Shown one piece after another: positions 421-7,667 of a stretch of DNA of 36,222 bases. The notes beneath the pieces were generated by a model that worked only from the letters and a program-made list of their open reading frames with translations, was not told the origin of the DNA and ran no database searches. This DNA comes from Pseudomonadota bacterium. GTDB lineage: Bacteria; Pseudomonadota; Gammaproteobacteria; JAKAQQ01. Location of the stretch: positions 70,209-106,430 of the forward strand of contig JAKATI010000001.1 of the NCBI GenBank assembly GCA_021828045.1. The letters run 5' to 3'. A program made the position numbers and the translations under genes. Every line of letters begins with the position of its first letter. Position 1 is the stretch's first letter.

Positions 421-450
421 TTGACAAATCTCGGGGGGGGGGGGTAGGGT
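421..450 (+). promoter_or_regulatory. sigma-70-like promoter with a 12-G tract as spacer (candidate phase-variable promoter)
   Basis: A perfect -35 box TTGACA lies at 421-426. The spacer holds twelve consecutive G at 433-444. TAGGGT at 445-450 keeps the three most conserved -10 bases (T1, A2, T6) at a spacing of 18. Start of transcription would be near 457, about 57 bases before the ATG at 514. Homopolymers placed between -35 and -10 are a known basis of phase variation, because slipped-strand replication changes the spacer length (for example porA and opc of Neisseria). That this promoter varies is inference. The run plus the following GGG-TA-GGG could also form a G-quadruplex. Confidence 0.55.
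433..444 (+). repeat. poly-G homopolymer (12 G)
   Basis: Twelve consecutive G, followed by TAGGGTAGGG. It is by far the longest G run noticed in the window and sits exactly in the spacer of the only near-consensus -35 upstream of the secreted-protein gene. Length should be treated as uncertain, since sequencing and assembly errors concentrate at such tracts. Confidence 0.9.
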
Positions 451-3606: not shown

Positions 3607-4188
3607 TCACTCCTTCGTGGCTGAAGCCTGGATCGAGAGCCAGGCCAGATGCGGGTCAACCCCTGAACAAATCAGCTGGTCGGGGTGACAGGATTTGAAA
3701 CCATGACTCCTGAATTCCTGAGGCGGTGCATGAGGCTTTTCTGGCGAGGGTCTAGGTCTCTCGATGCCGAGGAGACGCAGGTCGCGTAGGGCCGAGAAAT
3801 CGCGGTCATGCGTTACCAGCGCGTCGGCACCGATGGCCAGTGCACTTGCTGCTTGAACCGCATCCACCAGCTGCAACCTGCAAGCGGCGCGAAGTCGAGC
3901 CGCACTTTCCGCGACTTCCGCATCCAAGTCAACGACAAACCACGATTTGAGCGTAGCCCGGTACCTCTCTGCGAGGGCTTCATTGTGAGCGCTCAAAGGT
4001 CCGGTCAGCACCTCGGCGAGGGTTACCGTGGTAACCGCAAGCCGCACCCGCCCTTTGTGGTGTGCCTCAAATACCGGCTTGAATACCCCGGCGAGTCCGG
4101 AGTGATCCTCGAGCACATGGATGATTGGAGCAGAGTCAATCAGGAGAAGCGCACTCTCCGGCAACCCTTCGAGGCTTATCGGTTCCAT
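3607..4188 (-). CDS. PIN-domain (VapC-type) toxin with an extended C terminus
   Basis: PIN-domain ribonucleases of type II toxin-antitoxin modules cleave RNA with a Mg2+-binding acidic cluster. That cluster is visible: D18 in LLLIDSAPI, E59 in TLAEVL, D109 in LVDAVQAASAL, D128/D130 in THDRDF. Family members are about 130-150 residues. Here the frame runs on to 193, and the last 40-45 residues derive from a tRNA 3' fragment and flanking DNA, so the natural stop was probably lost at an insertion joint. The ATG at 4188 overlaps the antitoxin gene's end by 13 bases, the usual operon arrangement. The toxin core looks intact while its antitoxin is truncated, so it may be repressed by lack of promoter, inactive, or tolerated through another antitoxin. 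Confidence 0.8.
   Translation of the reverse strand: MEPISLEGLPESALLLIDSAPIIHVLEDHSGLAGVFKPVFEAHHKGRVRLAVTTVTLAEVLTGPLSAHNEALAERYRATLKSWFVVDLDAEVAESAARLRAACRLQLVDAVQAASALAIGADALVTHDRDFSALRDLRLLGIERPRPSPEKPHAPPQEFRSHGFKSCHPDQLICSGVDPHLAWLSIQASATKE
3677..3702 (-). other. tRNA 3'-end fragment (candidate att remnant)
   Basis: Read on the minus strand the segment contains TTTCAAATCC then TGTCACCCCGACCA, i.e. the 3' side of a T-arm, an acceptor strand CACCCCG, a discriminator base and CCA. The matching 5' acceptor (CGGGGTG), D-arm and anticodon arm are not found in the preceding 75 bases, so it is not a functional tRNA gene. Integrative elements commonly carry such tRNA 3' ends as attachment sites. 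It lies inside the 3' extension of the PIN-domain gene, which reads through it. Att function is inference. Confidence 0.5.
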
Positions 4189-7256: not shown

Positions 7257-7475
7257 TTGCGGAACCGGCAGGTACTCCTGTGTTTTCATGGGAACCGCTT
7301 GGCTCCGGCTTGACCAATCTCGAGGGGGATACACTCGAAACTGAATCGCGCGGGTCTGCCCGAAAGACTGGAAACCATCAAGCCAGGGAACGCGACGGAG
7401 ACTGTTCGATAAACAAGAGACGCACAGTCGGTGGCTATCTTTTCTTTTCCCCATTCTTGATCCCGTTGTTGTTTG

Positions 7476-7667
7476 GCGCAGCCATTGCAGGGATTGAGCC
7501 CATCCAACCGCAAGGACAGCCAATAGGAGGTTCACCTTGTACAGATACCGGAAAGCAGATTGGTGGCTGCGTTTGTGCCGCACGACACGTTTGGTTCTGT
7601 TATGCCGAGTAGTTGCGAAGAAAAGACAGGCTCGGCTGGCAAAGGGGGCCCAGACGCCACTTTCCGG
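7476..7667 (+). repeat. Diverged repeat, copy B (partner at 4361-4545)
   Basis: Aligned with copy A over its full length, including the shared frame ending CVCAARHVWFCYAE-stop (copy A: CLCGTMVVGRIVCYEE-stop) and the post-stop stretch ACAGGCTCGGCT/ACAGGCTTGGCT. In copy B the frame is open upstream back into purL copy 2, and includes a hydrophobic stretch (LFFSPFLIPLLFGAAIAGI), but no convincing start or homology supports a gene. Confidence 0.55.

Follow-up and report, generated by a model that had tools for sequence, protein, structure and literature searches.

A poly-G tract in a promoter spacer as a candidate phase-variation switch of a multicopy, lineage-restricted envelope operon

A promoter whose spacer ends in 12 consecutive G residues, upstream of a three-gene operon for predicted envelope proteins, is probably subject to slipped-strand, spacing-dependent transcriptional phase variation, as judged by comparison with its relatives. 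The promoter lies in the window, by which we mean the whole analysed stretch of 36,222 nucleotides (contig JAKATI010000001.1 of assembly GCA_021828045.1), and its operon belongs to a set of dispersed copies with mosaic structure, most of which have a G-tract promoter of their own. The comparison supports the reading that a known kind of switch acts in a new lineage, where it would control a multicopy family of envelope genes that is itself new. The features referred to below, in window coordinates, are:

421-426, + strand: -35 element TTGACA, the same in 22/22 family promoters examined
427-432, + strand: conserved spacer start AATCTC, from the family comparison
433-444, + strand: G12 tract, the proposed slippage site; 4-15 G in most relatives
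445-450, + strand: -10-like TAGGGT; TANNNT or (once) CAGGGT in 17/22 family copies, the window copy counted
451-513, + strand: 5' leader with Shine-Dalgarno (CAGGAGGAACGAC); the leader of the C31 paralog is closely similar
514-1323, + strand: W1, secreted protein of 269 aa with CxxC close to the mature N-terminus; opens the three-gene operon
1329-2306, + strand: W2, membrane-anchored, in part resembling TonB_C; the start codon may be GTG 1329 or ATG 1386
2303-2821, + strand: W3, small lipoprotein with an LSAC lipobox; its ATG overlaps the W2 stop
7310-7335, + strand: degenerate sister promoter (TTGACC, 14 bases with G5, TACACT) before the gene of a small secreted peptide, which belongs to a second family

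The initial annotation had described TTGACA, an 18-base spacer with 12 G and TAGGGT, followed by genes for a secreted, a TonB-like and a lipoprotein product, and this description holds: the site is exact in the sequence, with G12 at the end of the spacer, and the genes carry a signal peptide (W1), a weak TonB_C likeness (W2) and a lipobox (W3). G12 is the longest G or C run in the window (the runner-up is 8), and its position between -35 and -10 and its length, above about 8, are those of the porA/Tp0126 type of promoter. From base composition, G12 runs are expected about 3 times per whole genome (both strands), and TTGACA, G12 and TANNNT in the window arrangement about 2.5e-5 times per genome. 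The -10 is weak, with 3/6 positions of TAGGGT identical to TATAAT, and because of this limited match a standard promoter scanner did not report the TTGACA-G12-TAGGGT site; the promoter case for 421-450 therefore rests on conservation, the window hexamers being kept across three genera.

W2 and W3 are joined by an overlap through ATGA. The W1 signal peptide and W3 lipobox, which place a predicted secreted or surface product under the promoter, were assigned by inspection of sequence only. Pfam TonB_C matched 1/9 W2 homologs (E 8.2e-5) and scored below threshold against the window W2 itself, and W2 is taken to resemble TonB_C weakly. Searches with W1 gave no confident match in Pfam (top match Fea1, E 0.031, below cut-off) and no sequence relatives in the PDB. 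Since the AlphaFold model of W1 was moderate (pLDDT 64), and Foldseek with this model returned zero matches below E 0.1, no fold is claimed for W1; the W3 model (pLDDT 46) was too poor for structure search. The gene upstream of the operon encodes a DUF1820 protein (15-284, E 6e-26). A PIN-domain protein is encoded at 3607-4188 (- strand, PF01850, E 1.6e-12) and is a probable toxin component of a toxin-antitoxin system.

The source MAG (1.69 Mb, 90% complete) holds two more partial W1 copies at contig ends, with the promoter shared (C31, 95% identity over 283 bases; C5, 72%). Among 56 relatives searched, W1 was found in 8/9 genomes of its own bacterial family, with up to eleven matches per genome, and in none of the 47 other genomes of the class. 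Named records with W1 relatives are uncultured 'Proteobacteria bacterium' MAGs, which, from record and sample names, we take to be gammaproteobacterial and presumably sampled at acid-mine sites; these bacteria are probably free-living. W1 relatives were not found among viral contigs, so there is no sign of phage carriage. W2 homologs lie downstream of several other W1 copies, and W3 homologs downstream of many, in all three genera. W1 would be an undescribed, multicopy, lineage-restricted family of predicted envelope proteins. In the closest W1 paralog, C31 (L004, G000:C31, 1-279), the signal-peptide region is frameshifted by one base; the copy may be silent, or the frameshift may be an assembly error or a second off-switch.

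Promoter regions of 22 copies, the window copy included, were recovered from eight genomes. TTGACA was perfect throughout, mostly with GC just before it, and the sequence upstream was largely unrelated among copies. AATCTC or a similar sequence stood between TTGACA and the G-run, and 19/22 had a G-run of 5 or more after TTGACA (maximum 15). A -10 was recognisable in 17/22 (TANNNT, CAGGGT once), at spacers of 15 to 21; the other 5 copies had an assembly gap inside the tract (2) or a -10 that was not recognisable (3). The G-run measured 4-15 in all copies except L048 (G003), in which the tract is absent and both hexamers are kept at a spacer of 17. Compared with the window, C31 has G9 instead of G12 and a spacer of 15 instead of 18, and the tract accounts for the principal indel that separates the two. 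The initial annotation had proposed reversible switching of the operon by slippage, and had named invariant tract length in relatives as evidence against it; tract length instead varies between paralogs and between species and genera (runs up to 15, spacers 15-21) with the hexamers held, which supports the proposal, although MAG assembly from short reads may misstate such lengths by one base or more.

Spacer lengths separated according to the state of the tract. Unbroken tracts of at least 9 G (n=10) had spacers of 15, 15, 16, 16, 18, 18, 19, 20, 20 and 21, and broken, shorter or lost tracts (n=7) had spacers of 17, 17, 17, 18, 18, 18 and 20, so that a spacer of 17-18 was seen in 6/7 of the latter vs 2/10 of the former (Fisher p = 0.015; permutation p = 0.019 for the difference in variance), a modest contrast among 17 sequences that are related to one another and were assigned to classes once the data had been seen. 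In L050, a shorter G6 tract offsets additional bases other than G that follow the -35, giving a spacer of 18; in L060, four extra bases plus G10 give a spacer of 20, with CAGGGT as the -10. The spacing of the broken tracts lends indirect support to an expression that would depend on tract length.

An ordinary-promoter control was assembled from 46 TTGACA-N15-20-TANNNT sites in G000 and G001. The longest G-run in these spacers was 5, and 38/46 spacers measured 16-18; spacers outside 16-18 were found for 6/10 unbroken W1 tracts vs 8/46 ordinary sites (p = 0.011). Six apparent ortholog pairs of ordinary sites, matched by sequence similarity, had identical spacing (17, 18, 16, 16, 19, 17). These data bear on the alternative that G-richness of the spacer has a fixed role and tunes constant expression, through DNA melting or shape, sensitivity to supercoiling, or a G-quadruplex, while lengths merely drift. 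G-rich spacers of 19 bases before bioB in two relatives would fit it, but long G-runs are absent from ordinary promoters of the same genomes, broken tracts preserve length and not G-content, and L048 keeps both hexamers at 17 spacing with no tract at all, and we consider a fixed role improbable.

G-runs of 9 or more were frequent (33 in G000, 55 in G001). A perfect TTGACA preceded 6/60 of the G9+ tracts examined in the two genomes, four of these six sites lying before W1 and two before other secreted-type genes (L194, L198), and the other tracts examined were mostly within long open frames. Genome-wide poly-G richness was rejected as an explanation because of this placement, away from any -35. 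In most genomes of the family, TTGACA followed by G6 within 13 bases was more frequent than the same pattern reversed, which served as control. Across the class (one genome per family), TTGACA followed by G7 was rare, with a comparable site in 22/113 other genomes, mostly one each.

In G001, paralog pairs are mosaic: identity reaches up to 100% in the leader and signal peptide, against about 50-65% in the rest of the gene, and similarity starts near the -35 and G-tract. This pattern, together with L050 and L063, which differ between -35 and tract yet share a leader, is what would be expected if the tract were a recombination junction that spreads or shuffles promoter-gene cassettes, with spacing effects secondary. 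Neither the conservation of the hexamers nor the 17-18 spacing of broken tracts is predicted by such a junction, which we regard as very unlikely to be the main explanation, though junction and switch roles of the tract could coexist.

Assembly or two-colour sequencing artefact was also considered as the origin of the poly-G, given that the genomes are short-read MAGs and that two gaps fall inside the tract. The tract is contig-interior, occurs on both strands and lies between the same flanking sequences, conserved in MAGs that were assembled independently, and an artefact is barely credible. Only two distinct N-gaps were found in about 427 kb examined, both inside a promoter G-tract, in a sample enriched for G-tracts that makes this result suggestive only; the gaps hint at length variation within populations.

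For the phase-variation reading, the following sequence of events is proposed. In a promoter of sigma-70 type, G12 would be the portion of the spacer that varies, and in it replication slippage would add or remove single G-C pairs, shifting the TTGACA-TAGGGT spacing around a 17-18 optimum and altering sigma-70 RNA polymerase contact, so that W1-W2-W3 transcription would be switched or graded, heritably and reversibly. Since several copies are dispersed in the genome, independent slippage at each would leave a population mixed for the variants made. The window copy (spacer 18) is predicted to be active and the C31 copy (spacer 15) weak. We infer slippage within the population, its effect on transcription and the surface role. 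Homopolymer tracts of 8 or more in Neisseria are predominantly variable in deep reads (PMC5084427), which puts G12 well inside the unstable range. Missing mismatch repair was dropped as a cause: MutS was found in eight relatives, so slippage is not inflated by a repair defect, and it was not found in the source MAG, which is incomplete. Against phase variation, length differences between paralogs and species could accumulate slowly, the -10 is weak (3/6), and the G-rich spacer before bioB in two relatives indicates that such spacers also occur outside the envelope genes.

Several known systems are comparable. The porA promoter of Neisseria meningitidis has a poly-G between -35 and -10, and the spacing sets transcription (van der Ende 1995, cited in PMC2791445 and PMC7864442), like the window promoter a poly-G in the spacer of an envelope gene; it differs in being a single gene of a host-adapted pathogen, in contrast to a multicopy operon family of an unrelated protein in environmental MAGs. 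Treponema pallidum Tp0126 likewise has a poly-G between -35 and -10 and works best at 17 spacing (PMC7864442), the optimum given for both it and porA (PMC7864442, PMC2791445). In the T. pallidum tpr family, several paralogous membrane-protein genes have a promoter poly-G, the rule for tprE/G/J being at most 8 G, and tprL being more active with 8 G than with 10 (PMC7864442). The likeness to Tp0126 is thus the spacer poly-G and that to tpr the paralogous genes each with a promoter poly-G, the difference being that those are putative outer-membrane proteins of a spirochaete. The meningococcal surface-protein genes opc and fetA also have homopolymers in their promoter regions (PMC2791445), but the genes are others and the opc tract is a poly-C that overlaps the -35 (PMC7864442). 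A literature search for phase variation in acid mine drainage gave nothing relevant.

All poly-G spacing switches found by literature search are in host-adapted pathogens, and the apparent recurrence of such a switch at many secreted-protein operons of uncultured, probably free-living, presumed acid-mine bacteria suggests that population-level envelope bet-hedging is selected outside hosts. A broader reading, which we put forward tentatively and with somewhat more doubt than belief, is combinatorial surface variation, in which poly-G-switched mosaic operons would be driven by a factor besides host immunity (phage, predators or surface chemistry), and a second family, of small secreted peptides, would be switched in a similar way. 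Metagenome reads that already exist would allow the tracts at the promoters to be counted by length, a direct test of the switch.

Further G-tract promoters were observed. Window positions 7310-7612 hold the degenerate promoter and its small secreted cysteine-containing peptide, relatives of which in G001 have longer G-tracts (L127, G9TGGG; L125, G6); the tract is also longer, at G8, before L124, a gene of secreted type in G002. An unrelated lipoprotein-like ORF in G001 is preceded by TTGACAAAAGTC-G11-TATTTT (L128, G001:C5:2777), and a similar G14 promoter lies close to a contig end (L131, G008:C101:44-68); to judge from these two sites, genes besides W1 may be switched similarly. Upstream of bioB (biotin synthase), the spacers in G006 and G002 (L134 and L143) are G-rich and 19 bases long, with G9AG3 in G006.
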